From the IMG/VR virus record IMGVR_UViG_3300035125_000018, positions 1 through 55,970 of that record: a stretch of DNA of 55,970 bases, one strand, 5' to 3'. The translations under genes and the position numbers were made by a program. Positions 19,998 through 43,782 of this stretch are shown here, piece after piece. Below the pieces are notes generated by a model, which did no database searches, was not told where the DNA came from, and saw only the letters and a list, made by a program, of their open reading frames with translations. Each line of letters begins with the position of its first letter. Position 1 is the first letter of the stretch. Source of the stretch: a virus.

Positions 19998-21809
19998 CTA
20001 TGCTTCGATGTCGTATGAGAAATTGTCCGGGCCTGTCTCAGTGAACCGGATATCCTCGAGCCCGCACTCGAACTTCTCGACCTCCGTGTTCGCTTCAGCC
20101 GCAATCATAAACTTTGAGATCTGTGCTACGCCAGCCCATTCCACAAGAAACTGGAACTCAAAGCCGGTGTTGATGTTACGCCGACTCACGCGATCACACG
20201 CGCCCTTTGTGAAGGCCGGGAACGGCAGCTTCGCGCGGACCTGAGGCTGCCCTCCATCGGACATATCGGCATTCACGCGAATCGTAGACAGCTCTTGAAA
20301 GTCCACGAAGTTGTCCGGAGCTGCCGAGAGAGCAAACGCGATCGCGTTCTCAAGGTGAACGAGCCAAAGAGAAGCATCGAGAAGAGTCTTGTGCATCTGA
20401 GGAACCGGCCGCGGATACTCCTTGTCATAGGCCATGAACGAGAGCGTCCGAGTATAGAACTTGCACTCGATCGGAATGTTGCCTTTGTCGTTACCGAGCG
20501 TATCCATCAACCTGTAGAGATGATTAAAACCGTTATCGTCCTTCCCAAAAACGAAACACATCTCTTCGTACTGAAAGACTCCCGAGGCGAGTCCCATAGG
20601 ATGAACCCCTGTCCAGATACCGTCATAGGCGGGCTTGAGCGTGGCTCCAAGGGACGCAAGACCGTTGAAGGTAGCAAAGTCCAAGGAGATCAGTCCGGCG
20701 AACCTGTAGTCCTCTGAGGGCTCTCCTGAGCGATCCAGAGCCGTGACCGTTTCCCCGATCGCAGTATACAGGAAACGATCATCGAACTTCGCTCCGTGAG
20801 AGAACTGAATAAGCTGAGGATCCTCGAGATCAAGGAACGGTTTGACCTCAGTATTCAGGTTCGTCATACGATGATGGGTCGCGGCCTCGACCGACAGTAG
20901 CTTGAAATCCTGTATACCATGCCAGCTCCGGAACAGAAGATCCTCGTTCATTCGCACCACACAGTACTCACTGGCACAGCCGTTGCCTCCGGGTTCGATC
21001 CGCATGATCGGCATATCTTGCCAGTTAAGCCGGGGAACGGAAACCTTGTACGAACAGATCCCGCGCTGGCACATGACCATGAGAGGGCCTTCGCCTGTCG
21101 CCTCTCCGAAAGCCTGAGCCCAACTCATAGCCGTGATGTCGCCCATATCGGCCGGCGTGAAGAACGCGCCGCCGCCGGCCAGGTATTCCGTTTCGCTGAA
21201 CTTGAGAACCGCAGTCGGAGTAGCGGGCTGGTTAATGTCGCCAGCGATAAACTCACGTACCCCTGTCTTGACGAACAGGCGGCCGTGACAGTAGGCCATG
21301 ATGGTTCCGGTCGGCACTTCGAGATCCGGAGGCGTCTGGACCGCAGCTCTCGAAGCGGTATCCTCGATGATGAGAGGAACGCTGATTCCGTCCTGTACCA
21401 CCAGATACTTCTCGACTTGGCAGAAGTGAAGCCTGTCCACGTACTGATTGAACAGGCCAGGTCCCGAGCTCATGTCGTAGATCGCGCCCGCGATCGGATC
21501 AATCAGATAGACATAACCGTTCACCCCGAACGCGATGTAGGTCGTATCCTCGTACTGATACGTATACATCCCTTGAAACTTCCCGGTCGTGATATTCTGG
21601 ATGGCGCCGGGGATCCCCGACTCGAGAACAACCTCGATGAACGGAGGCCGTGTTCCGACCACACCGTTTCGACAGGTGATATTCACGCCCATGTGGAATT
21701 GATTCTCTCCAATCAGAGAGGCCAGCGTTCCGGCATTCATGCCTTCTTGCTGAGTTGTCAGTCCATCAAAGACTTTCAGTGAGGGCATTTTACCAATCCT
21801 TTTCGACAA
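19998..21809 (-). CDS. Tail nozzle/tubular-B-like beta-rich protein
   Basis: A 603-aa, strongly beta-rich protein with repeating strand-turn units, such as GMYTYQYEDTTYIAFG, GYVYLIDP and GRLFVKTG, suggesting a propeller-like fold as in podovirus nozzle proteins. It opens with MPSLKVFDGLTTQQEGMN and NGVVGTRPPF, also typical. It has no signal peptide, unlike the block that follows on the upstream side of the operon. It overlaps the 267-aa secreted-type gene by about 20 bases. Confidence 0.6.
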   Translation of the reverse strand: MSKRIGKMPSLKVFDGLTTQQEGMNAGTLASLIGENQFHMGVNITCRNGVVGTRPPFIEVVLESGIPGAIQNITTGKFQGMYTYQYEDTTYIAFGVNGYVYLIDPIAGAIYDMSSGPGLFNQYVDRLHFCQVEKYLVVQDGISVPLIIEDTASRAAVQTPPDLEVPTGTIMAYCHGRLFVKTGVREFIAGDINQPATPTAVLKFSETEYLAGGGAFFTPADMGDITAMSWAQAFGEATGEGPLMVMCQRGICSYKVSVPRLNWQDMPIMRIEPGGNGCASEYCVVRMNEDLLFRSWHGIQDFKLLSVEAATHHRMTNLNTEVKPFLDLEDPQLIQFSHGAKFDDRFLYTAIGETVTALDRSGEPSEDYRFAGLISLDFATFNGLASLGATLKPAYDGIWTGVHPMGLASGVFQYEEMCFVFGKDDNGFNHLYRLMDTLGNDKGNIPIECKFYTRTLSFMAYDKEYPRPVPQMHKTLLDASLWLVHLENAIAFALSAAPDNFVDFQELSTIRVNADMSDGGQPQVRAKLPFPAFTKGACDRVSRRNINTGFEFQFLVEWAGVAQISKFMIAAEANTEVEKFECGLEDIRFTETGPDNFSYDIEA

Positions 21810-22593
21810 GTATGTACGTCATGGATGCAGGAACCTTGCTCGACACGATCGTACCCTTACCGCGCATTCGTAGCTCAAGATTAACCGTTCCCTTGTTCAG
21901 CTTCTTCGACATCCAGACAAATCCAACGTTCGATACGTTTTCAGAATCCGTGAAGGCAAGACCATGACTGCCCGTACCTTTGTTGTTGCCGTTCAGAAAC
22001 AAACTGGTCCGGACAGTCTTGGTCGCGTTGGCCTTGCCATAGATCGTAGCCATGACCAGGAGCTTATCGCCTTTCCCGACTTTGACATTCTTGCTAAGAT
22101 CTGCATGGATCGGATCCCAGGATCCTCCGGTGTTGACATTGACATCGGCAGCATCGTATTTCAACCGCTTCCGGCGATTGTCTCCGCGCCGGCCGAGATG
22201 GTCCTTGATCTTCGCGACACGGTTTGAGTACGGAATCTCAGGCGATGTTGAGATCAACGTAGTGAAGAGAGCGCCGTTCGTATCCACGGAGATCACATAG
22301 GCCGTGTCATTCGTCGCGTGAAGGATCAGACCGCGATAGGGATCCTTGGCTTCGATATCGGCTTCGTTGGCAACGATCCTACCGGCCGTGACTATTCCGT
22401 TCGTACCGACAGTCAGGCCGACAACCTCACCTTCGAACGTGTTGAGATCATAAGCGATCGTCCAGCCCTGCAGCTCAACAGTCAACTCCTTGCCTTGTGG
22501 AGACAGGATCTTAATTCGAGTCACAACTCCGGTTTCCATCTGAGCCATGGCCGGCACAGCCAGGAGCATAAAGAGTACGATCAGCTTCTTCAT
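21790..22593 (-). CDS. Signal-peptide-bearing putative fibre/adhesin protein
   Basis: A 267-aa protein starting with a classical Sec signal peptide: MKK, a hydrophobic core LIVLFMLLAVP, and an AMA cleavage site before Gln18. The mature part is beta-rich with Thr/Asn-Gly turns (GTNGIVTAGRIVANE, TNDTAYVISVDTNG) as in phage fibres, and a C-terminal beta sandwich (KGTIVSSKVPASMTYILVE). It is coupled to the upstream gene by ATGA. A signal peptide on a protein inside the tail gene block is unusual. The protein may be exported or be a virion fibre with a hydrophobic anchor. Confidence 0.65.
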   Translation of the reverse strand: MKKLIVLFMLLAVPAMAQMETGVVTRIKILSPQGKELTVELQGWTIAYDLNTFEGEVVGLTVGTNGIVTAGRIVANEADIEAKDPYRGLILHATNDTAYVISVDTNGALFTTLISTSPEIPYSNRVAKIKDHLGRRGDNRRKRLKYDAADVNVNTGGSWDPIHADLSKNVKVGKGDKLLVMATIYGKANATKTVRTSLFLNGNNKGTGSHGLAFTDSENVSNVGFVWMSKKLNKGTVNLELRMRGKGTIVSSKVPASMTYILVEKDW

Positions 22594-23546
22594 TCAATCA
22601 CTACCTTACAGTCGTTTAACCGGATATCCTTTGCAGGCCCGGTAGGAGTCGCGATTCGGACAAAGAGCTGAACATAATCGTACTGGTTCAATTCGGCTAC
22701 CCACAGCATTGTCATGATAGCAGGATTTCCAGAGTCAATCGTAGAACCCATAGCCGATGCCTGTATCGGTACTCCGTTCGTTCCGAAACTAACCTTGATA
22801 TCCTGATTGCTGCCTGTGTCCGGTTCGACAGATGGGTTTGCATGAAGCGTTAGCTTAACCGGATCTTCTCCCACGTAGACCAATCGGTTCGTCACGAACA
22901 CAGTATTGGTCAGAACATCTCCTTCAGCCCATCCGGATTCCACCAAGTAATCTGTATACTTCGCAGCAATAGGAACAACAACAACATTCGTTAATCGCAT
23001 AGATCCGATCGTTGGATCCGTACTGATCGTTACTACGCCCATGCCGTTCGTTGGATCCACATGGATCCCTGGCCCCGGAAGAATCTGCTGAACCCATCCG
23101 GTAGTCGCATAGTTCGAATACATCGCTACCCACCAGTAGGCTTGATCCCAAAAACTTGTTCTCGACTCCATGTAGTCAAAGGAATTGGAGTTAAACGAAA
23201 CCCACCACCAGGCTTCATTCCATCGGCTCGTCTGATCCTCGAGGAAAGAAACGCGATTGGTCAGATCGTAGAAATCGTTGGAGTACGTCGAAACCCAAAG
23301 GTAAGCATCGTCCCACTCGTTCGAATGGGCCTTCACGTACTCAACGACATTGGAGTTGGCTTCGATCCAGTTCCAAGAATTGGTCGCGTAGAAGTGCGCG
23401 TTCGTCGCGACCACGTAGGCGTTCGAGGCTAGGGTCTGGTTGGTGTAGATGTTGCGGCGGATCCATGGCCACCAGAAGTTGAACTCGTAAGAGTAAGACG
23501 TAGCCGGCAGGACCAGCACAAGAACAAAGAAGATCCACCTACGCAT
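22590..23546 (-). CDS. Secreted-type protein with Trp-rich repeats
   Basis: A 318-aa protein with an N-terminal signal (MRRWIFFVLVLVLPATSYS). Residues 35-150 contain Asn-rich units of about 30 residues, three of which share W-D/N-x-A-Y/W-x-W-V-x-x-x-SN (DDAYLWVSTYSN, NEAWWWVSFNSN, DQAYWWVAMYSN). The C-terminal half is beta-rich and may be a knob. The repeats look like a trimeric coiled-coil or rod stalk of a fibre. The start has a weak SD, and the stop overlaps the next start by ATGA. Confidence 0.65.
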   Translation of the reverse strand: MRRWIFFVLVLVLPATSYSYEFNFWWPWIRRNIYTNQTLASNAYVVATNAHFYATNSWNWIEANSNVVEYVKAHSNEWDDAYLWVSTYSNDFYDLTNRVSFLEDQTSRWNEAWWWVSFNSNSFDYMESRTSFWDQAYWWVAMYSNYATTGWVQQILPGPGIHVDPTNGMGVVTISTDPTIGSMRLTNVVVVPIAAKYTDYLVESGWAEGDVLTNTVFVTNRLVYVGEDPVKLTLHANPSVEPDTGSNQDIKVSFGTNGVPIQASAMGSTIDSGNPAIMTMLWVAELNQYDYVQLFVRIATPTGPAKDIRLNDCKVVIE

Positions 23547-23563
23547 ATCATTGTCTCTTGCCG

Positions 23564-24040
23564 TTACGGATTTCTGCCGACAGCTTCACCACTAACCGGT
23601 TCCTCAGTGACAGCCTTGCCGCGAATCGTATTCACAGCTTCGGCCACATCACTCAGCTTGCCATGCGCGATCGCAAAGAGAAGAAAGCCAGTCAACAAAA
23701 AGAGAACAACTACTGCCGTGTAGAAAACGTACTTAACCGGAAGGCCGGCGAGTGGCCCTTTCGTGAGTACAGGCTCTTTCCCGTTGGCTTGGATAAGTCC
23801 GTTCATAGTCTCCAGCTCTCCGGTAACATGGCCAACATCTTTCTTGAGGTCACGGATCCCCGCATGATTCAACTGATCCAACTCGATAACGAGTAGCCCG
23901 TTTCTGGTCAACGGGCCTCTGGCTTCATCCCAGGCTGCATCCTCATCCAGAATCTTGCACAAGGATTCTACCGAGGATCGCACTCTGGTCTTGAGCTGTT
24001 CGTCTTGAATTTTCTGCGTCTGCGATCGTGAATCCGTCAT
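23564..24040 (-). CDS. Single-span membrane protein, possible holin-like
   Basis: A 158-aa protein from ATG 24040 (AGGGGG upstream). A charged helical N-terminal part (1-95) precedes one strong membrane span, YVFYTAVVVLFLLTGFLLFAIA (about 104-126), and a short acidic C-terminus. Coiled coil plus one span resembles XhlA-type or other small lysis/membrane proteins, but several roles fit. It sits between secreted-type genes and has no cleavable signal. A lysis role is only inference. Confidence 0.5.
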   Translation of the reverse strand: MTDSRSQTQKIQDEQLKTRVRSSVESLCKILDEDAAWDEARGPLTRNGLLVIELDQLNHAGIRDLKKDVGHVTGELETMNGLIQANGKEPVLTKGPLAGLPVKYVFYTAVVVLFLLTGFLLFAIAHGKLSDVAEAVNTIRGKAVTEEPVSGEAVGRNP

Positions 24041-24057
24041 TTCAACCCCCTGGTTCC

Positions 24058-24408
24058 CTATTCGCTTGACAGTCCCCACGACTGGAGAGTGTCTGCAATC
24101 GCAGGGAAATTCGTAAATACCATTTTGAACCTGACTGAATCGTTGACTGAGGTAACGGTCACATCTACAAAGGACTGGCTTGCGCCCTGCTGATCCCAAA
24201 TCGAGGACACCCACCAACTGTTCGTTCCATCGGTCATCACCGCACAGTCATTCGTCGCAAAAGTAATGCCGATCGTTTCGTACCGGTTCGTGACTGTCGC
24301 GAGATGATTCGTTCCGTCATACCTCAAGGCTTGAAGCGCAACGTGAGGATCCGCGGCCACGATACCGGCGATCAGGACTGCTGCGAATATCCAGAGAATC
24401 TTCTTCAT
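24058..24408 (-). CDS. Small signal-peptide-bearing protein (116 aa)
   Basis: Starts MKKILWIFAAVLIAGIVAADP, a textbook Sec signal with cleavage after VAA. The mature part of about 97 residues is Thr/Asn-rich and beta-like (ATNDCAVMTDGTNSWWVSSIWD). SD GAAGGTAGACA precedes the ATG. It lies in the fibre/LamG block. No family is recognised. Confidence 0.6.
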   Translation of the reverse strand: MKKILWIFAAVLIAGIVAADPHVALQALRYDGTNHLATVTNRYETIGITFATNDCAVMTDGTNSWWVSSIWDQQGASQSFVDVTVTSVNDSVRFKMVFTNFPAIADTLQSWGLSSE

Positions 24409-24411
24409 TGT

Positions 24412-25953
24412 CTACCTTCTTCCTTGCAAGTATTTCTGTCTAACTTCTTCAGCGTTCCACACATGATTGTCTACCTCTACGGTATCAATGAACCCGGAGT
24501 AACGCGCAGCAGTACTTGTCGGTAGCCACCAATATCCATAACGCGCAGTAGCAGGAACCGTTGTATGCGTAAGAGTTTCGTAATCCATCACCTGCGCCTC
24601 ACCGTCCAAGTATATCTGAACCTTTGATCCTGTTGGCTTCGACAAGTCGAGCGTCCAAACAACATGATGCCACGTTCCTTCGAAAGACTCCGGCCAAACG
24701 TTGGTTGTCGTCGCAGACCACTGAACATCATCCAAGGACCGGAAAACAATACGAAAACTTCCAACAGGCGCAAAAGACTGAGCAAGCCTAAACTCATAGC
24801 CTGTCTGACTGCCGCCGTAACCACCCATGTTCAAAATCGTATTCGAGTAATTAGGAACCTTAACAATATCAGTCGGATTGGCCCACAGAGATACAGTCAA
24901 CTTATCATCCAGGCCGCCGGGGACGTAGCGCCAGAAGTTAAACTTACCAGCGAGCATGAAATCATCCACGGTATCTATGAGAACACATCCATTCCCATTG
25001 TAGTTCGTCCAGAGTGGTTGATAGATCTGGCCGATAGACGACCAGACAGAAGGCATATTGGTTTGCTCCGCCCGATAAAAACCTGCAGCCGTGTTTGTGA
25101 ATCCCCAATGCAAAACGAGATTCGTGGGAAGCGTTCCGTTCGCAACATAGTTCGACCACTGTGCAGTAGACACCAGGCCGGACACACACATGGTTTCACT
25201 GAACCAGAGATTGCTATTGGACTCGTTCCCGACGTCATTAACATTTGGCATGAAGCCGCCCATCGAAAAATGGTAGTTATTATCTGCCGTATCGCTCGCG
25301 GTCACATTCAGATTTTGGTTCCTCAAAATACCATCAACATACACAAAGAAATCGTTGTTCGCGTTATCGAAACTACAGGAGATAAAATGCCACTGTCCGT
25401 CATTGATCGTTGCGCCCGATGCAGTCACGTTGTAAGTGGTAGAAGCAAGACGCAGAGAACCACGATGGTTTGCTTGCGGAAGCGCGTAGGAGTACCAAGC
25501 ACCTACGTTCCCCCAGTAGCCTTTTCCCATGAGGTAAAGTGGTGAGCCATCAATTTTGACCCAAGTACCCCAAGACCAGTCATGTCCAAAGATATCGAGC
25601 TTGGAGTAATCTCCACCATGGATCGCCTGGTCGCCGTAGGTAATACAGTAACTATGCGTAGACGGACGAACCGCCTTGATTACCGGTGGCGCTTTCCCGA
25701 AGAAAGGTGGCGTGAGTCTCAACCTATTCCGTGCATCTCCGGTGAGACTGTTTCCGCTGAGATCCGCGATCGTAGTCGAGGCAAGACCATTCTCGTTGAA
25801 CAGCCATGTAATGGCCGCTTCAGGCGCAACGACTGGTTCGACAACAACCTTACCATCCACCATCACTATCCGGCCATCCTGAACGACAAGCGTTCCGGCA
25901 AAAGAGACAACCAATGTCACGACTACAAAGACGGCGATCAGAAAATACTTCAT
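24412..25953 (-). CDS. Secreted-type protein with two LamG/concanavalin-like domains
   Basis: A 513-aa protein. It has a signal-like N-terminus (MKYFLIAVFVVVTLVVSFAG), a short strand region (VVQDGRIVMVDGKVVVEP), then two LamG-like jelly rolls. The first (about 50-285) has WSWGTWVKIDG, DGQWHFISCSFDN and NDFFVYVDGIL. The second (about 300-505) has LTVSLWANPTD, TWHHVVWTLD and VQIYLDGEAQ. LamG folds bind glycans or proteins. The first module is clearly related to the first module of the 1,020-aa gene upstream (compare WSNYVANGTLPTN with WSNYYNNGVFPTN), indicating duplication. Its role is probably surface or receptor binding. Confidence 0.75.
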   Translation of the reverse strand: MKYFLIAVFVVVTLVVSFAGTLVVQDGRIVMVDGKVVVEPVVAPEAAITWLFNENGLASTTIADLSGNSLTGDARNRLRLTPPFFGKAPPVIKAVRPSTHSYCITYGDQAIHGGDYSKLDIFGHDWSWGTWVKIDGSPLYLMGKGYWGNVGAWYSYALPQANHRGSLRLASTTYNVTASGATINDGQWHFISCSFDNANNDFFVYVDGILRNQNLNVTASDTADNNYHFSMGGFMPNVNDVGNESNSNLWFSETMCVSGLVSTAQWSNYVANGTLPTNLVLHWGFTNTAAGFYRAEQTNMPSVWSSIGQIYQPLWTNYNGNGCVLIDTVDDFMLAGKFNFWRYVPGGLDDKLTVSLWANPTDIVKVPNYSNTILNMGGYGGSQTGYEFRLAQSFAPVGSFRIVFRSLDDVQWSATTTNVWPESFEGTWHHVVWTLDLSKPTGSKVQIYLDGEAQVMDYETLTHTTVPATARYGYWWLPTSTAARYSGFIDTVEVDNHVWNAEEVRQKYLQGRR

Positions 25954-26327
25954 GGCCCCACCTGATAACTGTTCGTGATCGCATCAGAATTCTCTCCGAG
26001 AATCACATTCACGGAAGCGTTTGTCCAAGTCCAGATCTCTCCGTCCGTAACTGTCAACGGAGCATTCGGGCTGTTCGGTTTTGTCCTGTCAATACCTATC
26101 GCCCATCTCACATCATTTGAGTCAGACACAGAAACCATGATAGTCATATTGCTCAATGTGTTTAATGACAAACCACGGATACCTGTGTCACCTTCGACAT
26201 CGGCCACAAAGTTGCTCTGCACTTCGGCAGTCGCATTCGTCTTAACGAACGTAAAGATGAATCGTGGAGTAGCCACGGCCACCGAAGCCATGAAGAAGAA
26301 AGCCAGAATCTTAATAGTTGTTTTCAT
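25950..26327 (-). CDS. Small signal-peptide-bearing protein (125 aa)
   Basis: From ATG 26327, which overlaps the end of the 1,020-aa gene by 17 bases. The N-terminus MKTTIKILAFFFMASVAVATP is a Sec-type signal. The mature part is beta-rich (FIFTFVKTNATAEVQ, MTIMVSVSDSNDVRWAIG) and ends with a segment rich in Asn/Thr. It is coupled to the LamG gene downstream by ATGA. The function is unknown; it travels with the LamG genes. Confidence 0.6.
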   Translation of the reverse strand: MKTTIKILAFFFMASVAVATPRFIFTFVKTNATAEVQSNFVADVEGDTGIRGLSLNTLSNMTIMVSVSDSNDVRWAIGIDRTKPNSPNAPLTVTDGEIWTWTNASVNVILGENSDAITNSYQVGP

Positions 26328-29300
26328 CACGGTGATCGGGTATCGGTGTTCCCTTGGTTCCTGTTTCTTGAGCGTTCTCCAAAATCTGTGCGTCAGTGAG
26401 CGCAGTTGTCCAGAACTTGTAGTCGTCAAAGTGACCTCTCCAGTAGTAGTTGTACGGCCCCGGCAGAACAACGTAGGAACCAAGGAAGATAGCATAGTCC
26501 GAGTTGTACGAAGCGTTCGTGAAGGTTCCAGCCGTATGTGCAATACCAGTCGTTACTTCAACCCCGTTCGTGAAGATATCGCAACCCGTCCAGCTGGTTC
26601 CTCCATCGTATCTGACAGTAAGATTGACCCATCCCTGTGAAGCTGTTATGGCCCCGCCTACGATGTTCTTGCCAATATAGACATTGTTATTGTCTTGCTG
26701 GAATACAACAAATATCAGATTGGCTCCAGAGTGCAGTACCAGCCAGTCACGCTTATAGCTGTAGCCTGTAGGATACTCCCACTTATACTTGACCATGATT
26801 CCCGCAGTCCCAGTCTTGTTGTCATTCGTTACCCAGAGAGAAGCGGTGAATCCGTTGGTCTGCCCCGAGTAGGCAGAAGGAGGATACTGCATCACCATTC
26901 TGTCGCCTGCCCCATCAAGATAGTAAGAATACTCGCCTCGTCCACGGTTCCGGCTACCACGCTGACGGTTCACGCCATCCTGAACCCATGTCGGCCCAAT
27001 ATCAGGAGTGCCGTCTGGGTAGAACATGGACGTTCGACCCGAACCATAATCTCTCATGTTGTCGTCATTTTCGCAGGAATAGTACAAGGCAAGATCATTC
27101 GTGGAAACAACGTCTATGGTTTCGTTGGTTCGGTTCGCCGCAGCGATTGTTGAAATCTGATTGCTCGTCAGTCCTGCATCGTAGTACCGAATATTATCAA
27201 CCAGACCGTGAAGAGGGTAACTTGTACTAAGACCGTATTTTGCTATTACCAGTGTGTTGTTCGTGCCAAGCGTGGAGTTGGTGCAGGTTGTCGCATCTTG
27301 AAGAACACCGTTCTTGTAAAGTTCCAGAGTCGTTCCACGAAGCGTCATGGCCCAATGCTGCCATTCATTCGTCACAACGTCTGCATTAGCTTCAGCGTAT
27401 ACCCAATCGCCAGCACCGTTCCTGTCCACATAGCCTCTGACACGATCAACAAGTTCGTAGTACATCAGTAAGTACCCGTTCTGATCAGCCGAATCAACAC
27501 AGGTCATTATACCTTGAACATTCGCTGGCCCTTCAAGATTAGTCCACTTCACCCAACACGCCATAGCAACATTCGTAGAACGGAAAACCGAGTTCGTTCC
27601 TCCATCAATATAGCTGTTCCCCGATCCGGCATTCTGATACGCCCGTTCAGTACAATCATAAGCCAACCCAATAAGCGTTCCGTCATTCCCGGCAAGACTT
27701 TCATCGGTGATGTATCCTGCGTTGTTCTGGAAAGGAATGTGCGTGATCGCAGCAACAGGATCGTTCCAGCCCGATTCATCACGACCTTGCTGGTACAGAC
27801 CCAAGACCTGTTCCGGAGTCAGCGCATCAGGAAAGAGAACAAACTCATCGAGGTCGCCTCGCGTATGCCATGACCTGGCCCAGTTGCATCCAACGTAAAG
27901 CAGGTAGCCAGGAGCGCCATCCGTACCACGAAGAAACGGATTCTGCGTAATGTTGTTGGTATAAGGGACAAGGGCAACTCCATCCTTGTAGACAGTGACC
28001 GCGGGTGACGCCTGCTTATCGAACGTCACGCAGAAATGACGCCACACGTTCGCATCGGAAGCGGTAGTATAAGCGTTCGAGGCAGCATAGTATTCACTTC
28101 CAGCGGCAGGTCTTGCATGAATACTGAACGCCTTGGCCGGCCGTGGACCTGTATCAGTAGCAGAGCCGCCGACCTTCACATCCCAAATGTCTACGTTGTC
28201 AAACGTCAGCTCTGTTGACCAATCAGAGAACCGTGGATGATTGTCTGGATCGCTGTCACGCCGCCACCATGAGATCGTGCAGGTATTCGTGTCGCCAAGG
28301 TTGTTCGGCTGGCCTTGTTGTGTCCTCCCGTATGGACGCCAGTACGTCAGCCATATAGCATCGTTTACGCCATCGAAGGTCAAGTAGCCTTGCCCGTTCG
28401 TTTCTGCCCAAGAAGGCTCGGACACACTCCCAAAACGTCCGATCAAAGATGGACAATTCGTTCCGGTCGGAACAGCTCGCCAACTATTGATCGTATTCGT
28501 GAAGGCCCAACGCAGCCTCAATCCATCGTTCGTCGGAAAAACTCCGTTGTTGTAGTAGTTCGACCAGCCAGCTTCCCCAACGATACTACCGCGAATGAAG
28601 AACGCCTCCGAGTAGTACATACCCTGGCCTTCCCAAGTGTCGTAGCCGTTCATCATAAACTGGTGATCGTTGCTGGTTACACCGTCTACCGTCATGTTGC
28701 TTCCAACATACTCGCCGTCAATCGAAACGTAGAGTGCGTTGTTGTCGTCGTCGAAGTCCATCCCCAGGAGATGCCACTGATCGTCATTCAGATTCGCGTT
28801 GGGGATCGTCACTCGTTCATCATCGCCATCGAAAAAAGCTGCGATCAAGTTCGTATACGAAGCGCCGGCAGAACCATCTATCCGGAAACCCCATCCGTTA
28901 CCCCATGTTCCTTTGCAGAGCATGAACTGGTAGTTGTTATCTGAGGCTGCCAGCGTAGACGGGATCTTCACCCACACACCTGCAGAGCTGTTGGTGTTCA
29001 TATTGAGGCCCGGATCAGTCAATCCACCGGGATGTCCTACCGCCCAAGCGTACTCACACCAGCCATACGTCATAAAGTAGACGCTGCCGTAGAGATCATC
29101 TAGCGGGCCATCCTCGAACCAGAACCAATAATCTCGCACCGCCGCGCCACCATACGATTTGGCATAGTTATCGTTCCCTGACAGATCAGGCTGGAAGTTC
29201 GTCGGCGAATGAGAGAAAGACCGGATATTGAAGTCCCATCCCATCGTCGGATTACCCGGATCCGTTGGAGTGACTACAGCAACACGAACGAAGCCTCGTC

Positions 29301-29373
29301 CTCGCTGAACTATGACAACAGCCGATGCCACTCCAGCGATCAGGAGCAGCACGACAACGATCAACTTCTTCAT
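26311..29373 (-). CDS. Large secreted-type multi-LamG protein (1,020 aa)
   Basis: The signal peptide MKKLIVVVLLLIAGVASA is followed by four LamG/jelly-roll-like modules at roughly 40-300, 310-550, 555-770 and 790-1010. Each shows the family landmarks of a strand with W (SAGVWVKIP, CTISWWRRD, MACWVKWTN, TASLWVTND), a DxQWH or WxH turn, and a YxDG strand (LYVSIDGEYVG, VTVYKDGVAL, LELYKNGVLQ). LamG repeats bind sugars or matrix proteins, so this may be a long adhesin or fibre. The first module is paralogous to that of the 513-aa neighbour. Encoded among tail genes, it is unusual for having a cleavable signal. Confidence 0.78.
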   Translation of the reverse strand: MKKLIVVVLLLIAGVASAVVIVQRGRGFVRVAVVTPTDPGNPTMGWDFNIRSFSHSPTNFQPDLSGNDNYAKSYGGAAVRDYWFWFEDGPLDDLYGSVYFMTYGWCEYAWAVGHPGGLTDPGLNMNTNSSAGVWVKIPSTLAASDNNYQFMLCKGTWGNGWGFRIDGSAGASYTNLIAAFFDGDDERVTIPNANLNDDQWHLLGMDFDDDNNALYVSIDGEYVGSNMTVDGVTSNDHQFMMNGYDTWEGQGMYYSEAFFIRGSIVGEAGWSNYYNNGVFPTNDGLRLRWAFTNTINSWRAVPTGTNCPSLIGRFGSVSEPSWAETNGQGYLTFDGVNDAIWLTYWRPYGRTQQGQPNNLGDTNTCTISWWRRDSDPDNHPRFSDWSTELTFDNVDIWDVKVGGSATDTGPRPAKAFSIHARPAAGSEYYAASNAYTTASDANVWRHFCVTFDKQASPAVTVYKDGVALVPYTNNITQNPFLRGTDGAPGYLLYVGCNWARSWHTRGDLDEFVLFPDALTPEQVLGLYQQGRDESGWNDPVAAITHIPFQNNAGYITDESLAGNDGTLIGLAYDCTERAYQNAGSGNSYIDGGTNSVFRSTNVAMACWVKWTNLEGPANVQGIMTCVDSADQNGYLLMYYELVDRVRGYVDRNGAGDWVYAEANADVVTNEWQHWAMTLRGTTLELYKNGVLQDATTCTNSTLGTNNTLVIAKYGLSTSYPLHGLVDNIRYYDAGLTSNQISTIAAANRTNETIDVVSTNDLALYYSCENDDNMRDYGSGRTSMFYPDGTPDIGPTWVQDGVNRQRGSRNRGRGEYSYYLDGAGDRMVMQYPPSAYSGQTNGFTASLWVTNDNKTGTAGIMVKYKWEYPTGYSYKRDWLVLHSGANLIFVVFQQDNNNVYIGKNIVGGAITASQGWVNLTVRYDGGTSWTGCDIFTNGVEVTTGIAHTAGTFTNASYNSDYAIFLGSYVVLPGPYNYYWRGHFDDYKFWTTALTDAQILENAQETGTKGTPIPDHRDENNY

Positions 29374-29382
29374 GCGCTCCTC

Positions 29383-31362
29383 CTATGGACAGGATATCAG
29401 GAAGTCTACGCTGATCAGATTCGTGCTTGCGAAGGCCGACAGACCGGATGGAATGAATCCTATCCTCATCCCGTTGGTCACGGCCGCGGATCCGGAAAAG
29501 CTCGAGTCGGCCGTTCCGGTGGCATTGGCAGCGATCCCGCTGTCAACCGTGTTGTAGGTATACCATCCCTGGCTTCGATGTTGGGAGACTACCGTTACGG
29601 CGCCTGTCGCTCCATGAGCCTTCGCGTAAATCTCTGTGATCGTACAGGATCTAGTTCCGAACGGGTTGGCCATCCAGTAGGCTATCCCATTCGTCATATC
29701 CTGAATCTCAAGAGTGAACGATCGAACGATGTTCGTCTGATTCGCGTTGTTCTTGTAACCGGCAGCCGCATGATCTCCCCAACCGTAGGCCGTATCCCAT
29801 TTGTTCGACTCACTTTCAACGTACTTGTAGAGAGGATCGTTGGTAGTGACCAGGCCGGTAAAGTTGGTTGAGCCAGCCAGCCTGACTCCATTGACAAAAG
29901 CATTCGTGCCGAGAAGAACCCGAACACCAGATCCCCTGTAATCCTGATCTCCTGCCGTGACCGTATTCGGACCATCATTCGTCATGAGATTAGCTGGCAG
30001 GGTGGATATGAAGTTCGATGGATTACTGGCCTTATAGTACAAGTTCGATTCCGAGGTCCATATAGGATCTGTTTCAACAAATCCTGTCAGATAACCAGCG
30101 TCATTCGCGAAGAAACTGACGTTCGTAGGATACGAGTAGTTCAACATCCGTCCCGATCGAGCAACGGAGAAGTTCGTACCGGGCTGCACGGATCCGTTCG
30201 TAACCGCGATCTGATAGATCGGATCATTCGTATAGACAACGCGATTGCTGTTGGAGTTCCAGTCGGGATCCAGTTCGGCAGTCAGAAATCCCGGGTCGTT
30301 ATTGTACTGGCTCAGATTCGTCCAGCCGCCTTCCTGGCCGAGCTGAACATAGGCAACACCATCCGTGTTCGCAAACGGGATATACACAAGAGCCTGACCG
30401 TTCGTGAACCTGAGAAATGGATTCCTGTTATGGGTCCACGAAGATCCAACCGTATTGAAATTCGAAGCAGAGATCTCTTTGAACGGCATCTGCTGAGATC
30501 CGATGGATGTAGCATTGGACCCGATCGGCATGATGGAGTTGCTGACAATCAGCATACCGTTGATGAAGAAACGCCGATTATCAAACTCACCATAGACCAG
30601 AGCATTTGTCGTACGGGAATACGCAGGGTTCCCATCAATGATGAGAGTATACGGCCGATTCACACTATACCCCGCTTCCCGACCAATAAAGACACAGTTG
30701 CTATTCCCGTAGGCAGTAGAATAACCGGCGCGAGGCCCGATCATCACGGAGTACTGAGCATTATTAGCTCCCCATCGGCCGGTATAGTACCCAATGAGAA
30801 CGGCCTGATCGTAGTTGGTTGATGTCGTGCCGGCTCCCCATCCAAGAGCTGTTCCATAACTAGTATCATTTGCTCCCGTCCCTGCTCGGGTTCCGATAAA
30901 CGTAGAACCAGGCACTCGTCGCGCTACATTTCCGGCGAGCGATCCGTATGCTGTCAGCTCTGTGCTGCTCTCGGCAAAACGACCGGCATAGTATCCAACG
31001 ATCGTCTGAAACGTACTGTTCGATGCAAACTCGCCAGCGTGATAACCAATATAGATCGAATCGGCCGAGTTGACTGCTTCCTTCCCGGCGCTGTGATCAG
31101 TACCAATCGCGAGAACACCGTTGGTATTAAGAACATTCAAAAAACCAGTGATGTTCAAATTCGTGGCACTACTGTTCGTGAACCAGAGATTGTCAATCCA
31201 CGCGTTCGAAAAAAACTGAGTTGTCCCAGGATCGTAGGTGTTGTTCTGAGAAGTACGAACAACGTCGCCCGGAAGCGTGAAGTCTGCCGTCGGGTTCACA
31301 ACGCCAGCAATAAGAACCGAGGCGATCAAAACGATCGCCGCAGCGAAAAGAAGATGCTTCAT
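29383..31362 (-). CDS. Signal-bearing tail-fibre-like protein with YadA-head-type repeats
   Basis: A 659-aa protein with a hydrophobic N-terminus (MKHLLFAAAIVLIASVLIAG). Residues 110-235 carry repeats of the GYHAG/GYYAG/GSLAG/GTRAG/GREAG type, one per 16-20 residues, as in YadA/Hep-Hag heads and many phage fibres. Later come fibre motifs: NDAGYLTGFVETDPIW, DPGFLTAELDPDW, and WDTAYGWGDHAAAGY near 540. The C-terminal 100 residues look like a beta knob. This is the clearest tail fibre in the genome, and it still begins with a Sec-type signal. Confidence 0.75.
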   Translation of the reverse strand: MKHLLFAAAIVLIASVLIAGVVNPTADFTLPGDVVRTSQNNTYDPGTTQFFSNAWIDNLWFTNSSATNLNITGFLNVLNTNGVLAIGTDHSAGKEAVNSADSIYIGYHAGEFASNSTFQTIVGYYAGRFAESSTELTAYGSLAGNVARRVPGSTFIGTRAGTGANDTSYGTALGWGAGTTSTNYDQAVLIGYYTGRWGANNAQYSVMIGPRAGYSTAYGNSNCVFIGREAGYSVNRPYTLIIDGNPAYSRTTNALVYGEFDNRRFFINGMLIVSNSIMPIGSNATSIGSQQMPFKEISASNFNTVGSSWTHNRNPFLRFTNGQALVYIPFANTDGVAYVQLGQEGGWTNLSQYNNDPGFLTAELDPDWNSNSNRVVYTNDPIYQIAVTNGSVQPGTNFSVARSGRMLNYSYPTNVSFFANDAGYLTGFVETDPIWTSESNLYYKASNPSNFISTLPANLMTNDGPNTVTAGDQDYRGSGVRVLLGTNAFVNGVRLAGSTNFTGLVTTNDPLYKYVESESNKWDTAYGWGDHAAAGYKNNANQTNIVRSFTLEIQDMTNGIAYWMANPFGTRSCTITEIYAKAHGATGAVTVVSQHRSQGWYTYNTVDSGIAANATGTADSSFSGSAAVTNGMRIGFIPSGLSAFASTNLISVDFLISCP

Positions 31363-31363
31363 C

Positions 31364-31912
31364 CTAGTACTCCTGAGTTAGCGCCCTCGCGGGTTGGTCT
31401 ATGCAGATTGCGTACACGGCAAGCTGAAGCTGTTCCTCGCTGGCCCAAGCTGTTCCACCAGGCTTCAAGAGGATCCCGGCATTCGTGACCGCAGGATACC
31501 CATAGGCAAGCCAGATATCATTCGTGCCGCCATTCCCGATCTCGATACCTGTACGATCCCGAGGCTGGACGCGCCGCCAAACGTTCGTTGTGCCATCGGC
31601 AGCATCGCCCCAGGCATGATCAGGCATCGTGACGGTGACGTACTTGTTCGTGACTGGAGACACGTTCCAGTACACGCGATCGGTATGGCTGGTACTACGA
31701 CACAGATCTCCGTTGCCATACGCACGACCGGCCTCCCAATTTCGCGCGGCCCGGACACGCGGCGCCGCGATCATGAGAGAGTACGTCTGCAGGTTAAATC
31801 CGGCTGGCCGCACTCGGTAATTCTTGACACCGCCGGCGAACGCGAAAACTCCGGCCATGAGTGCGACCAGCACGAAAGCTATACTTGCATAGAGGATACG
31901 CTTCATCTTCAA
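31364..31912 (-). CDS. Signal-bearing small fibre-tip/carbohydrate-module-like protein
   Basis: A 182-aa protein with MKR-type signal (MKMKRILYASIAFVLVALMAGVFAFA). The mature part has WEAGRAYGNGDLCR and VYWNVSP, the look of a small carbohydrate-binding module, then GNGGTNDIWLAYGYPA and a closing VYAICIDQPARALTQEY, which resembles small fibre-tip proteins. The SD is good (AAGGAG upstream region). It is separated by one base from the YadA-type fibre gene, so the two are probably used together. Confidence 0.6.
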   Translation of the reverse strand: MKMKRILYASIAFVLVALMAGVFAFAGGVKNYRVRPAGFNLQTYSLMIAAPRVRAARNWEAGRAYGNGDLCRSTSHTDRVYWNVSPVTNKYVTVTMPDHAWGDAADGTTNVWRRVQPRDRTGIEIGNGGTNDIWLAYGYPAVTNAGILLKPGGTAWASEEQLQLAVYAICIDQPARALTQEY

Positions 31913-31918
31913 TCTCCT

Positions 31919-32551
31919 TTAACCTATTGCGATCCAGTTAATGTTCACGGTCCTGTCCACAGGAAAGTCGTTGCAGCCATAGATCTTGAATCCAAGGTAA
32001 TCAGCATCCCGAACATAGACAGAAAACAGATTCGCGAGATCCGAGTCAACATCAACCGTAAGAACGACAATCGGATTAACCGCCGCACCAAACGGAACCT
32101 GATACGTCACGGTTGTTAGTTCCTCATCGTCGTTACCCGATGTCATGTCAATAGCCTCTTCCTGGCCGGATAGAACCTGCACGTTCTGCGTAACCGGAGA
32201 AACAATCTTGTATGGATTCGGAGGACCGACCTGAAACATGATCGAGCCTTCGGGGGCCACGGTCCCGGGAGAAGAGTTGACAAGAACGCCGGTATTCACC
32301 ATCGCCAATCCGGTAACTCCTACGCGACCGATAATCTGCATGAAGCCAAGACCATCAATGTAGACATATGCACCGATCGCCCAATGATTACTATTGCACA
32401 CGATAACCGTTGTCGTACCTCCAATGCTCGGCATACTCACAGCCGAGGCAATCGCTTCCCACATATAGGAAGTGTTGCAGGCCGCAGCCTCGGGAGTCTC
32501 TGCGACACAATGAATCGTGCAGTCCGGGGGAAGTATTACAGGATCAGTCAT
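31919..32551 (-). CDS. Putative receptor-binding protein with H-type-lectin-like end
   Basis: A 210-aa protein with no signal peptide, opening MTDPVILPPDCTIHCVAE. The last 70 residues (YQVPFGAAVNPIVVLTVDVD ... VNINWIAIG) match the H-type lectin pattern: a six-stranded domain ending in W-x-A-x-G that is common in fibre tips. The middle is beta-rich (IVCNSNHWAIGAYVYIDG). Because it lacks the signal of its neighbours it may be the tip subunit assembled in the cytoplasm. SD AAGGAGAA lies before ATG. Confidence 0.6.
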   Translation of the reverse strand: MTDPVILPPDCTIHCVAETPEAAACNTSYMWEAIASAVSMPSIGGTTTVIVCNSNHWAIGAYVYIDGLGFMQIIGRVGVTGLAMVNTGVLVNSSPGTVAPEGSIMFQVGPPNPYKIVSPVTQNVQVLSGQEEAIDMTSGNDDEELTTVTYQVPFGAAVNPIVVLTVDVDSDLANLFSVYVRDADYLGFKIYGCNDFPVDRTVNINWIAIG

Positions 32552-32562
32552 TTCATTTCTCC

Positions 32563-34212
32563 TTAGCTGATTCCAGGGGCTACCTGTAGTCGAAGCGGAT
32601 TCCGTACAGCATGAACACCGGCATACGGGCTGAACGTGATATCAAATATCGGATGCCCGGTAGAAGGATCCAACGTGACAGTCATATTGTGGATCGTAAG
32701 ATTCCACTTCACGCCGGGGTGAACGTGTCCAACCTCATGAGGTGTTCCGTTATCATAGATCTTTACTCCGGTCGTAGATCCATCTCCCCAAGTCTTTGAG
32801 TACTGGTAGGCGTTCCCGCCATATCCAACGTAGGTCATTGGTGTGATGTTGACGCCACCCCCGCCAGGATAAGACCATGTATACTTTGCATCTATCGGGC
32901 CGGCCAGCGGAGTCTGCACCTTGATATGAACCTCAACCAAACTGGATCCAGTCTCGGACGGATTTGCAGGATTCTCGGCCTGGGCTTCCAGAGTACCGCC
33001 GTTGTAATCACCAGCTCCATCCCCAGCTGGCGTATACTCGAGCGTTCCCGGCTGATTGCCTCCTGCAATAAGACCTGTTCCATTCGGAGGCGTAACAACG
33101 AATGCACCAGACAAACCCCCGTCCGGAGTATTGACCATCGTGAAGTCAACCGGGACAAGAGCGTTATTCTGAAGAACCCAATCTTCAGACACAGGGTTGT
33201 TGTCGAGAGGCACTACGGACATCACGATCGGATCCGGCGTAAGATCCACGGCGATCACAGCCGCTTCGAATGTTATCACCTTTGAGTCCGTTGTAATTGC
33301 ATCGTCGGCACAAGCGGCCACTTCATGCGTATGAATCGTCACAATGCAGGAAAGAGTCTCTGTGGCAACAGGAGCCGAAGTAAATTCTACATCGAAGTTC
33401 CGAACAATCTCATCGGAGATCGGACCCAAACATCCAGCCGGCACGGTAACATCAGAACCGGCCGGCCAAGTTCCCTGCTTCTCAACAGTAATCCTGTAGT
33501 AACCTGTAACTCCGTGAATGTTGGAAAACTCGACGTTGACTGTAGAGTCGCCCGTACCGCTATCTACTGTTCCTGTCTGTGACTCAGAAGTTTCAAAACG
33601 AAACACCGGACGAATTACCCAAGGATCAGGTTCCGAATCCGTTGGGAGTAACACGTTCTGCTGATTCTCATCTCCGGGTTCCGGATAGAAATTATCCCAA
33701 TTCGGCTCACCGGGATATACACCTGTAGGCGTTACAGGCTGCGTAGGATAACGACGAAGATTCAGGCTACCTTGCTGATTGTACGGATACGGAAGCAGAG
33801 GTGTTGGAATCGGCAACGGATTCGGAGGCCGTATCGGTGGTATCGGCGCAGGAGGCACTTGCGGTAGCGGTGGTATTCTCAGCCAGAGCTGTTCACCATT
33901 TGGATCCGGCAGAATAACCGTCCACGGAAAGATCGGATTCATTTCATCGTCAAAGATCTCGGGCTCGGCCTGCCAGTTCTGATCGGACTCAAACCAGATC
34001 GTGGCAAAAGGAAGTTCCTCTCCCGGATAGATAGTGAAGCTGAACCAGATTGGTTCCCCGTTCTCGTAGTAGTCGGCCGTGAGCATGGCCGGCGAATAGA
34101 ACCCGCGCTCCCAAGGAACCCAATCCGCAATCTGTGTGAGAGAGTCAGGGGACCAGCATCGAGAACAACCGCAACCAGCTCTATGACAACACTCGGAGGT
34201 TTCGCAAGTCAT
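32563..34212 (-). CDS. Multi-domain beta-rich surface protein with PKD-like segment
   Basis: A 549-aa protein from ATG 34212 (GGGGAGC upstream). The N-terminal 20 residues are Cys-rich (CETSECCHRAGCGCSRC), which could bind metal or form disulfides. Residues 115-160 are a Pro-rich linker. The rest appears to be Ig/PKD-like beta domains: residues 195-330, then 340-430, and a last one with KTWGDGSTTGVKIYDNG, the typical PKD turn. It is probably a virion surface or fibre-base protein. A hairpin separates it from the gene upstream. Confidence 0.6.
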   Translation of the reverse strand: MTCETSECCHRAGCGCSRCWSPDSLTQIADWVPWERGFYSPAMLTADYYENGEPIWFSFTIYPGEELPFATIWFESDQNWQAEPEIFDDEMNPIFPWTVILPDPNGEQLWLRIPPLPQVPPAPIPPIRPPNPLPIPTPLLPYPYNQQGSLNLRRYPTQPVTPTGVYPGEPNWDNFYPEPGDENQQNVLLPTDSEPDPWVIRPVFRFETSESQTGTVDSGTGDSTVNVEFSNIHGVTGYYRITVEKQGTWPAGSDVTVPAGCLGPISDEIVRNFDVEFTSAPVATETLSCIVTIHTHEVAACADDAITTDSKVITFEAAVIAVDLTPDPIVMSVVPLDNNPVSEDWVLQNNALVPVDFTMVNTPDGGLSGAFVVTPPNGTGLIAGGNQPGTLEYTPAGDGAGDYNGGTLEAQAENPANPSETGSSLVEVHIKVQTPLAGPIDAKYTWSYPGGGGVNITPMTYVGYGGNAYQYSKTWGDGSTTGVKIYDNGTPHEVGHVHPGVKWNLTIHNMTVTLDPSTGHPIFDITFSPYAGVHAVRNPLRLQVAPGIS

Positions 34213-34228
34213 ATCGCTCCCCGTAAAG

Positions 34229-34259
34229 CAAGGCCGCCTGCATGGAACAGACGGCCTTG
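34229..34259 (-). terminator. Hairpin with short U-run between late genes
   Basis: A 12-bp stem (34229-34240 with 34248-34259, one wobble) with a 7-nt loop lies 28 nt after the stop of the 134-aa gene and is followed on the minus strand by CTTT. It probably attenuates transcription into the fibre genes and does not stop it fully, since no promoter is evident after it. Confidence 0.6.
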
Positions 34260-34286
34260 TTGGATACAACTGAAACCGTCAGCCTG

Positions 34287-34691
34287 CTATATCTGCCGCC
34301 AGTCGTTGGTGGTCAGACCGACGGAGATCCAGGCCGCGCCGACACTGTTCGTGTTGCCGACGAGGATTTCCCCAAGCATAACCGGCTGGTATGCTGTCGT
34401 GGTTGTGGTCGTGTTCGTGTCAACCGTGACCAGGGGGAGCTTGCTTCCACGATACTGCACCGTATCGTCGTCCGCGTTCGAGCCTGTCCCGATCTGACAG
34501 GCGCGATCGGCGTCCACCGAACTCATACCATCGCATGAGCTGAGAGCAATGCTCCCGGTGGAGTCGGCCGAGATCACGGACCCGAAGCCGAGCTTGTGAT
34601 TCTGTGTGCCCTGCTGAACGAACGTGGCCCCGGTCAAAAACCCGACCACCAGCACGCAGATAACCAAGGTGATAACGTGAGCTTTCTTCAT
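34287..34691 (-). CDS. Small signal/anchor-bearing capsid-proximal protein
   Basis: A 134-aa protein beginning MKKAHVITLVICVLVVGFLTGATF, a signal peptide or uncleaved anchor. The mature part is beta-rich, with poly-Thr (TVDTNTTTTTTAY) and a GNTNSVGAAWISVG ending, like head-decoration or small fibre proteins. SD AGGAGAAATTGGAAC. It lies between the major capsid terminator and another hairpin, so its expression is set apart from both sides. The role is unknown. Confidence 0.55.
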   Translation of the reverse strand: MKKAHVITLVICVLVVGFLTGATFVQQGTQNHKLGFGSVISADSTGSIALSSCDGMSSVDADRACQIGTGSNADDDTVQYRGSKLPLVTVDTNTTTTTTAYQPVMLGEILVGNTNSVGAAWISVGLTTNDWRQI

Positions 34692-34785: not shown

Positions 34786-36339
34786 CTACGCAGGATCGGT
34801 GCAATGGGCGCACCAGGCTCCTACGAGGCCACCGTCATAGGCGCACCATCCACCAGCCTGTGTCGCGGTGAAGGCCACCCTGTAGGTCGGCGCATTGGCA
34901 TCGCTGACAATGATCGCCGCGTCGGAGACATCGGTCGCTCCGGCTGTTCGAACGTCAATGGACTCGCCGGGACCGCAATCCAGCAAACCATCCAGCTCGA
35001 GATCGTACTCGGTAGCGTCGTCGTCGGGCACTTCGCTGTCCACCTTGGCGCAGGCTACGACCGTTTTCAGGTCGCAGTCGCCCTCGAGGCAGACGGTGAT
35101 CGGGAGCTGCGTGCAGCGACGGTGCAGGAACAGAACCGCGTCCGTGCTGTACTGCAGAGGTTCGGGAGCGATCCGGAACCGTGCGAAGAAGAAGCCCTTT
35201 TCCCGAAGGATGTTCTCGCAACGGTCCTGAATGTTGATCCAGTGGAACTCACCCATGTTGTCCGCGGGATCAAAGTCGTACGCGCCGGCCAACCGCGAGG
35301 GGTTGCTCGGAGGCACAAGGGCCTGGTAGACGTTCTTGAGGAACACCACAGAGATCTCGAAAGGCGCCATGATGTATTCCTCGGAGATGTTGACCGCCTC
35401 GCCGATCGTGGTCGGGGAGGTTTCGAACGGGAACACTCGCTCGAGCCGGGTTCCGTCCTCGCTCACCTTGAAGCGCGGCGTGCAGGCGTCATGAACGTGC
35501 GCCCACCCACGGTACGATTGCACCGTGCCGTACCCTTCGATCAGGAAGTTCTGATCCACGTACCGCATATCCGTGTTCGCGGTCGGATCGTTGCGGATGA
35601 TCTCGGTCGAGGTTTCGGGGCTGGTGATCAGCGCGAACTGCGGCATCCCGTTCCGCATCCCCATGGAGGCTTCGGCCGCCTGCCGGAAGAGATACTGGTA
35701 GATCCTGTCGAGGATCGGCTGCGTGAGCGTTCCGATTGCATCGAACCCGCCTGCCGGGACGGTGATGTAGCAATCGCCCAGGTTCATCGTGAACTCCTGC
35801 AGGCCGAGTCCGTCCGGGCTGTTGCTGACAAGGTACTTCGTGCAGAAGTCCATGTAGAACTCACGCTCGATCTGCTCCCACTCGCCGAGCGTGACATTGG
35901 CGAGCATCCCGTAGGTCAAGCGGAGCTGCTTCTCGAACTGCCACTTGAAGAGGAGATCGTTCAGGCAGATGTCGAGAGTCCTGCGCGTGGCCTGATACAG
36001 CGTGTAGGACTTTTCCTCGAACCCGTAGTTGATTACGGGCGACTCGTAACGGCACGCATCGTGCCCCGGATCGTCCTGACCGTTCGTGCCGGCCGGACGC
36101 GACGGTTCGACCACGGACCAGGATGCACCGCAATCCTGAATGGCCGTGCCGCCGTAGAAGGTCTGTGATTTCTTGACGTAGCCTTCGCCGTACTTGAACG
36201 TTCCGCGACCGACCTTCGAACGGTAAAGGGAAACGTACTTCTTGGTCTTGTCGGCAATGACCGGGTTGATGTACTGCACGGCGTCAATGAAAGCCTGATT
36301 GAGCACTTCCACATCGCAGGGGGAATCGGATCCAAACAT
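34786..36339 (-). CDS. Major capsid protein (candidate)
   Basis: A 517-aa protein in the classic head order portal, small gene, scaffold, capsid. It begins with a VEVLNQAFIDAVQYINPVI helix and a YVKKSQTFYGGTAI segment, with HK97-like mixed alpha/beta character (QFALITSPETSTEIIRND, MRYVDQNFLIEGYGTV). The last 90 residues are a Cys- and Asp-rich extra domain (about 430-517) that may project from the shell. The gene has its own TTGACG promoter, a structured leader, a strong SD (GGAGG) and its own terminator, all signs of high expression. The fold is inferred; the position is the main evidence. Confidence 0.8.
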   Translation of the reverse strand: MFGSDSPCDVEVLNQAFIDAVQYINPVIADKTKKYVSLYRSKVGRGTFKYGEGYVKKSQTFYGGTAIQDCGASWSVVEPSRPAGTNGQDDPGHDACRYESPVINYGFEEKSYTLYQATRRTLDICLNDLLFKWQFEKQLRLTYGMLANVTLGEWEQIEREFYMDFCTKYLVSNSPDGLGLQEFTMNLGDCYITVPAGGFDAIGTLTQPILDRIYQYLFRQAAEASMGMRNGMPQFALITSPETSTEIIRNDPTANTDMRYVDQNFLIEGYGTVQSYRGWAHVHDACTPRFKVSEDGTRLERVFPFETSPTTIGEAVNISEEYIMAPFEISVVFLKNVYQALVPPSNPSRLAGAYDFDPADNMGEFHWINIQDRCENILREKGFFFARFRIAPEPLQYSTDAVLFLHRRCTQLPITVCLEGDCDLKTVVACAKVDSEVPDDDATEYDLELDGLLDCGPGESIDVRTAGATDVSDAAIIVSDANAPTYRVAFTATQAGGWCAYDGGLVGAWCAHCTDPA

Positions 36340-43429: not shown

Positions 43430-43782
43430 CAGCTCTGCATATTTTCCCACCACTCGAGCAGATCGTCACGACTCTTGCCTTCGAAGGAGCTCTCGATTAC
43501 CTTGACCCGTTCTTCCGTTTCGCGCTCACCCTGCTTGGCAACAGTCAGGATCGTTTCTGTGAACGGGTAGTCATACTCTTGATGAGCCTCAAGATTCTTT
43601 CGATTCTGGCGTAGTACCTTCGCAAGATCTGAATGGTGTTTGCTGAGTTCATCTTCGGCTTCGGCCAGGTGTCCCAACGCGAAGTAGTAGTGCTCGGGAT
43701 ATCCGCGCATTGACTCGAGCATGAGCACTCGGGCCTGAGCGATGTGCTTGCAGGCACAGAGTACGCACGACTCACGATCCAT
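43429..43782 (-). CDS. Hypothetical protein with CxxC-KHxAQA motif (117 aa)
   Basis: Starts MDRESCVLCACKHIAQARVLM, with GYPEHYYFALGHLAEAEDEL next. This pattern of CxxC-x-KH-x-AQA then GH-LAEA recurs in phage proteins of unknown role. Helical throughout. The stop overlaps the terminase start. It may be a small packaging or assembly factor. Confidence 0.6.
   Translation of the reverse strand: MDRESCVLCACKHIAQARVLMLESMRGYPEHYYFALGHLAEAEDELSKHHSDLAKVLRQNRKNLEAHQEYDYPFTETILTVAKQGERETEERVKVIESSFEGKSRDDLLEWWENMQS

Follow-up and report, generated by a model that had tools for sequence, protein, structure and literature searches.

The window analysed here, the whole IMG/VR virus record IMGVR_UViG_3300035125_000018 (55,970 nt), raises the question of what nine genes with putative export signals are doing inside the virion module of a tailed phage, whose tail fibres are, to our knowledge, regarded as products of the cytoplasm. 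The window comprises the complete genome of a bacterial virus: an exact 127-bp direct terminal repeat (positions 1-127 and 55844-55970) is present at both ends, so that the genome is complete at ~55.8 kb. Early genes, encoding DnaB-like helicase, ParB-like and nuclease-like proteins, occupy one strand, and the other carries a late module with terminase, portal, scaffold, capsid, the nine-gene block, tail proteins and further virion proteins. Within this module the terminase large subunit (41687-43453, minus strand) was named by tblastn matches to annotated terminases, whereas portal, scaffold and capsid were named by position; the putative major capsid gene (34786-36339, minus strand) is the one located between a scaffold-like gene and the block. 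The block is followed by a gene for a putative tail protein without a signal peptide (19998-21788, minus strand). Portal, capsid and tail proteins had no PHROG or Pfam match.

Searches for relatives placed the phage apart. A search of 2.9 million viral contigs found no close relatives of the terminase, capsid, DnaB-like helicase or 1020-aa LamG protein, and a search of 50,697 phage records found none of the terminase, the portal, a 603-aa protein or the LamG proteins. The nearest proteins in the terminase alignment were only ~25% identical, with no other genes in common, and four contigs reached through a DUF-like early protein shared that gene alone and a weak DnaB-like match. Neither the MCP search of 285 Omnitrophota genomes nor the comparison of the portal and the 22590 product with 288 genomes from the class of a Kiritimatiellae MAG gave a convincing match. 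At the level reached by these sequence searches, the window phage is an orphan. The gene order resembles that of N4-like phages (Schitoviridae), but this assignment was not supported, the portal having no PHROG or phage tblastn match and the capsid and giant protein being likewise without PHROG match. The giant protein (2899 aa, 7231-15930), at the end of the late module, is placed like the N4 virion RNA polymerase and matched no Pfam or PHROG family; adjoining it, positions 6937-7221 encode a very arginine-rich, protamine-like protein of 94 aa. At the upstream end of the late strand, a possible lipoprotein (MKKYWPELSVLLVGALALLWVGC), judged by eye, is encoded at 45513-46100.

The nine genes all lie on the minus strand (leaders are given with a slash at the predicted cleavage site). 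The first follows immediately on the putative major capsid gene and encodes 134 aa (34287-34691; MKKAHVITLVICVLVVGFLTGA/TF) with a weak DUF4402 match, below cut-off. The second encodes 180 aa from the ATG at 31906 (31364-31906; MKRILYASIAFVLVALMAGVFAFA/GG), and the third a 659-aa protein (29383-31362; MKHLLFAAAIVLIASVLIA/GV) with YadA-head-like repeats and a W[DN]TAYGWG[DN]HA fibre motif. The fourth and sixth are LamG proteins of 1020 aa (26311-29373; MKKLIVVVLLLIAGVASA/VV) and 513 aa (24412-25953; MKYFLIAVFVVVTLVVSFA/GT), with four and two PF13385 stretches, respectively; between them lies the fifth, of 125 aa from the ATG at 26327 (25950-26327; MKTTIKILAFFFMASVAVA/TP). The seventh encodes 116 aa (24058-24408; MKKILWIFAAVLIAGIVAA/DP), the eighth a 318-aa Trp-repeat fibre with a GPGI linker and a C-terminal knob (22590-23546; MRRWIFFVLVLVLPATSYS/YE), and the ninth 267 aa (21790-22593; MKKLIVLFMLLAVPAMA/QM). 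Three further minus-strand genes of the region encode proteins without a signal peptide: a candidate ordinary virion protein of 550 aa with a Cys-rich N-terminus (32563-34212), a 210-aa protein with a very weak Gp53-like fibre C-terminus (31919-32551, E=0.09), and a 158-aa protein with one predicted transmembrane segment near its C-terminus (23564-24040).

A preliminary description of this DNA had counted nine minus-strand genes with hydrophobic signal N-termini, and all nine are present in the sequence; for 25950 and 31364 the signal-bearing ATGs, at 26327 and 31906, lie downstream of the starts of the listed ORFs. A purine-rich, SD-like sequence precedes the ATG in most of the nine. The genes are co-directional, with overlapping or near-abutting starts and stops, and tightly packed with the late genes. 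Consensus promoter sites at the block showed no excess over shuffles; a promoter/terminator of its own, apart from the late genes, is the criterion for a lysogenic-conversion moron. The GC content of the block (~50%, versus 55-57% around it) is what could be expected if host DNA or a chimeric assembly had put a block of bacterial secreted-protein genes into a phage contig. Such an artefact is highly improbable given the overlapping, co-directional genes, and it was rejected on account of the complete genome with its exact terminal repeat and the recurrence of the same arrangement in independent contigs and prophages described below.

Leaders were evaluated with a rule-based signal-peptide scorer checked on 42 E. 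coli genes, where no cytoplasmic protein was called and all exported proteins other than lipoproteins reached 8.0 or more, as did one inner-membrane protein (8.2). Exactly nine genes of the window score (8.8 to 13.0), and none of the ~40 other genes of the genome does (Fisher 6e-8). All nine conform in sequence to Sec/SPI signal peptides: a basic n-region leads into a hydrophobic core, positions -3/-1 carry small residues, and no membrane span follows. A lipobox with Cys at +1, as in lipoproteins of the T5 Llp type, is absent from all nine, and no lysis domains were found in the nine proteins. Among control phages, the scorer called 1/46 ORFs in P22, 1/32 in N4, 0/54 in VpV262 and 1/62 in phi38:1, and 32 terminase-bearing IMG/VR contigs yielded two leaders in 467 ORFs, giving an overall control rate of ~1%; the positives in P22 and N4 are lysis genes (Rz and the SAR endolysin, respectively).

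The leader cores of the nine proteins are no more alike than shuffles (core identity 0.154 versus 0.143), a pattern that suits signal peptides but not a docking peptide recognising a single partner. This bears on the last of three options offered by the preliminary description, namely uncleaved membrane-active anchors of the virion; in this reading the hydrophobic N-termini plug fibres into the virion or the host membrane and are not export signals. Hydrophobic N-terminal helices could indeed anchor, and the N-terminal helix is the sole confidently predicted part of the 31364 model (the predicted structures of the 21790 and 31364 products had mean pLDDT of 42-43 and were left out of fold searches). 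Anchoring is nonetheless improbable in view of the AxA-type sites, the short basic n-regions and the want of a sequence common to the nine leaders, to which the divergence at the cleavage site between homologues and the occurrence of homologous fibre modules on bacterial exported proteins, both presented below, can be added.

The encoded proteins resemble fibres and lectins. The presence of LamG proteins in the block, proposed earlier from inspection, was borne out by Pfam: PF13385 matched the products of 24412 (E=1e-17, 64.9 bits) and 26311 (E=1e-41, 143 bits) well above the curated cut-off of 27.6, which places both among LamG/concanavalin-like lectin domain proteins, and the two are paralogues (27% identity over 481 aa, E=2e-25). 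The Trp repeat attributed to the 22590 product is likewise visible by eye. The C-terminal knob of this protein is related to a signal-less KVP40 protein adjoining the capsid gene; the protein also gave a weak match to a tail-fibre PHROG (E=0.03), a match to a PHROG of unknown function (1e-5), and one to a signal-bearing protein of the 210-kb contig G010 (E=7e-8). The label "YadA-like" given to the 29383 product was appropriate for its head-like repeats but not for its domain content, since no Pfam family was matched at E<=0.1, and neither the head nor the C-terminal beta-barrel anchor domain of YadA-type trimeric autotransporters was found. By tblastn this protein matched tail-fibre-like proteins weakly (E about 1e-3); its W[DN]TAYGWG[DN]HA motif also occurs in cyanophage tail-fibre-like proteins, and a match to its repeats is found in gp257 of Sphingomonas (Sphingobacterium) phage PAU.

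Viral and bacterial collections were scanned for the fibre motif, counting ORFs with a readable start. A signal peptide was present on 7 of 95 viral ORFs among the matches listed and on at least 29 of 63 bacterial ones. Cassettes of signal-bearing fibre/LamG genes among virion genes occur, among the matches listed, in three unrelated phage types (G008, G006/G007 and L092), and also in a probable jumbo phage (G010) and two Omnitrophota prophages (G014 and G123). The arrangement, for which a survey of related phages and host genomes had been suggested, thus recurs in unrelated phages and is not a one-off. The 46.6-kb podophage G008, whose capsid, terminase and portal were confirmed by PHROGs and whose virion genes are unrelated to those of the window, has signal-bearing genes just downstream of the capsid gene, encoding a 122-aa protein, a 614-aa LamG protein (its leader under the scorer threshold, clear by eye) and a 346-aa protein with a tail-fibre family match (E=8e-33). 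Apart from this post-capsid block, a 344-aa protein of G008 with a signal peptide is encoded a few genes upstream of the terminase (L265:2658-3692). In G006/G007, three signal-bearing genes come after the HK97-type head genes, and one of them encodes two LamG domains. L092 also has three, one of them LamG, and its tail-module matches are weak. The 210-kb contig G010 has phage-type replication genes, no structural genes identified, and several signal-bearing genes, one of which resembles the 22590 and 29383 genes of the window. Fibre candidates without signals coexist with the signal-bearing genes in the window (31919 and 32563), in G008 (264 aa) and in G014 (222 aa).

Genomes of Bacteroidota, Elusimicrobiota and Omnitrophota commonly encode signal-bearing proteins with fibre modules, and the leaders could accordingly be regarded as hitch-hikers on secreted-adhesin genes lately acquired whole from hosts, export having no role in the phage life cycle. 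Nine such genes in a row in one genome, their retention in several unrelated phages, and their identical place in related Omnitrophota phages make passive carriage a doubtful explanation, with little probability.

The Omnitrophota prophages allow homologous leaders to be compared. The G014 prophage, in an Omnitrophota genome, is close to G006 (capsid 81%, portal 85%), and its signal-bearing fibre occupies the same place. Between the two fibres only 6 of 20 leader residues are identical, versus 26 of the next 38 (68%), and the cleavage motif AFA/DYQ is retained; a leader that has diverged yet been kept beside a conserved mature N-terminus fits a real signal peptide. In G123, a second and more distant Omnitrophota prophage, two signal-bearing genes directly follow the tail-tip gene (leaders judged by eye, one under the scorer threshold); one has the mature N-terminal segment of G006/G014 and the other a baseplate Gp10-type C-terminus. 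The G014 fibre (L272:15820-18065, at the end of contig C3) combines a signal peptide with an Mtd second domain (PF21916, E=6e-18) and a C-type-lectin-like end. That end is repeated just downstream, at the contig end, with 95% identity over 61 bases, forming a VR/TR-like pair in which two of the three differences fall at adenines of the second copy (TR), and further contigs of the G014 and G123 genomes encode reverse transcriptases of the DGR type (GLPIGNLTSQ). Together these features are suggestive of a diversity-generating system that may act on a signal-bearing receptor-binding protein in G014. No reverse transcriptase and no Mtd or C-type-lectin domain of a DGR/Mtd system was found in the window itself.

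From the sequence evidence, the nine leaders are very probably real export signals. This view is well supported by the n/h/c architecture with AxA sites, by leader cores no more alike than shuffles, by the diverged yet retained leader beside a conserved mature N-terminus in the Omnitrophota phages, and by the occurrence of the fibre motif on many bacterial proteins that carry signals; these four supports make the uncleaved-anchor option the weakest of the three put forward originally. The other two, secreted adhesins and fibres completed outside the cytoplasm, are not separable by sequence.

If the signals are real, the proteins could still be virion fibres: after export they would trimerise in the periplasm and be joined to tails or capsids when the cell lyses or afterwards. 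The block lies among virion genes, and fibre families are found on signal-bearing proteins elsewhere: phrog_9729 in G008, baseplate Gp10_C in G123, whose genes following the tail tip carry signals, and the Mtd second domain in G014; a signal-bearing protein also has a tail-collar-like C-terminus similar to annotated tail fibres. Set against this, the window, G008 and G014 also have fibre candidates that lack a signal, and ~93% of viral proteins with the motif are signal-less among the matches listed. In known systems the tails of tailed phages are assembled in the cytoplasm, which also counts against such a route, and since in E. coli-type cells an exported protein cannot reach cytoplasmic tails before lysis, any virion reading must account for that. 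We consider completion of these fibres outside the cytoplasm unlikely. Its generalisation, that a group of tailed phages with little-studied hosts, Omnitrophota and others, completes fibre, lectin and Mtd-type proteins outside by way of Sec and periplasmic trimerisation, adding them at or after lysis, is rather unlikely; if true, it would amount to a way of assembling fibres so far undescribed in tailed phages.

We favour the reading in which the block encodes late, Sec-exported lectin/adhesin-type fibres that would act outside the cytoplasm, and give it, taken as a whole, about an even chance. A cassette of fibre-type and lectin-type genes would be expressed late, along with the virion genes; the proteins would pass the host Sec pathway and have their leaders removed by signal peptidase I; and the mature proteins would fold in the periplasm or outside, serving there as adhesins or lectins with receptor-binding-type modules. 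Their most likely role would be to coat or remodel the envelope of the dying host, and not to be built into tails in the cytoplasm; glycan receptors might, for example, be masked, so that neither progeny nor competitors would adsorb anew to the cell or to cell debris. The signals, their restriction to the block and their recurrence in unrelated phages are seen in the sequences; the cleavage, location and masking role of the nine proteins are what we infer. The coexistence of signal-less fibre candidates in several phages somewhat favours a host-surface or released role over virion fibres completed outside, and the likeness to bacterial exported adhesins argues for surface or released lectins. 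The position of the block within the virion gene cluster, the packing of its genes and the lack of promoter excess count against a non-virion role, as does the location of the signal-bearing genes of G123 behind the tail-tip gene, where fibre genes usually lie. On balance, such a role may be assigned a probability close to, and if anything slightly under, one half.

Several known systems share parts of this arrangement. One is PAU gp257, which, like the 29383 product, has a signal peptide (MKTQKLLISLVLFITTLTTFA/QN) and YadA-head-like repeats and whose C-terminus is common to cyanophage structural fibre proteins; it differs in being single, the only scorer-positive in 258 ORFs of the first 200 kb, with no cassette. 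The G014 fibre is similar to the Mtd-type receptor-binding proteins of the Bordetella phage BPP-1 family in its Mtd second domain, C-type-lectin-like end and VR/TR-like pair, but unlike them carries a signal peptide. Legionella LdtA and Treponema TvpA are bacterial exported variable/adhesin proteins that display ligand-binding modules outside the cell, whereas the proteins of the window are phage-encoded, many together, located among virion genes, and have a lipobox in none of the nine cases. T5 Llp and other receptor-blocking or superinfection-exclusion proteins are phage-encoded and exported and could mask receptors; Llp, however, is one small lipoprotein, while those of the window are large fibre/lectin proteins with signal-peptidase-I-type sites. 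Sec-using phage proteins are mostly lysis or exclusion proteins. The usual ones are endolysins, SAR endolysins and spanins with signals, represented among the control phages by P22 Rz and the N4 SAR endolysin; these are lysis proteins and not fibres. Endolysins with signal peptides are known among phages (PMC8878798).

Phage-encoded exported proteins and phage fibres are each already known. Among the papers listed from the open-licence literature, covered mostly through titles and abstracts, we found none that reports tail fibres with signal peptides, and, as far as this limited search shows, the grouping of fibre and lectin genes with signals as a cassette within the virion modules of several unrelated tailed phages is undescribed. 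The recurrence of such a late cassette would mean one of two things: phages use receptor-binding modules of their own to remodel the surface of the infected cell, or some virions reach completion outside the cytoplasm. It also calls for caution, as sequence alone is not a sound basis for annotating fibre modules either as parts of the virion or as adhesins of bacteria. A survey of tail-collar matches found leaders, as judged by eye, on 9 of 10 in Omnitrophota (4 Sec, 5 type IV pilin-like), compared with 1 of 29 in Pseudomonadota, or 2 when judged by eye; most of the Omnitrophota proteins look bacterial and not phage. At the Omnitrophota loci L277, L279, L280, L282 and L286, PF07484 tail-collar domains are fused to type IV pilin-like N-termini (GFTLIEL) in apparently bacterial proteins.
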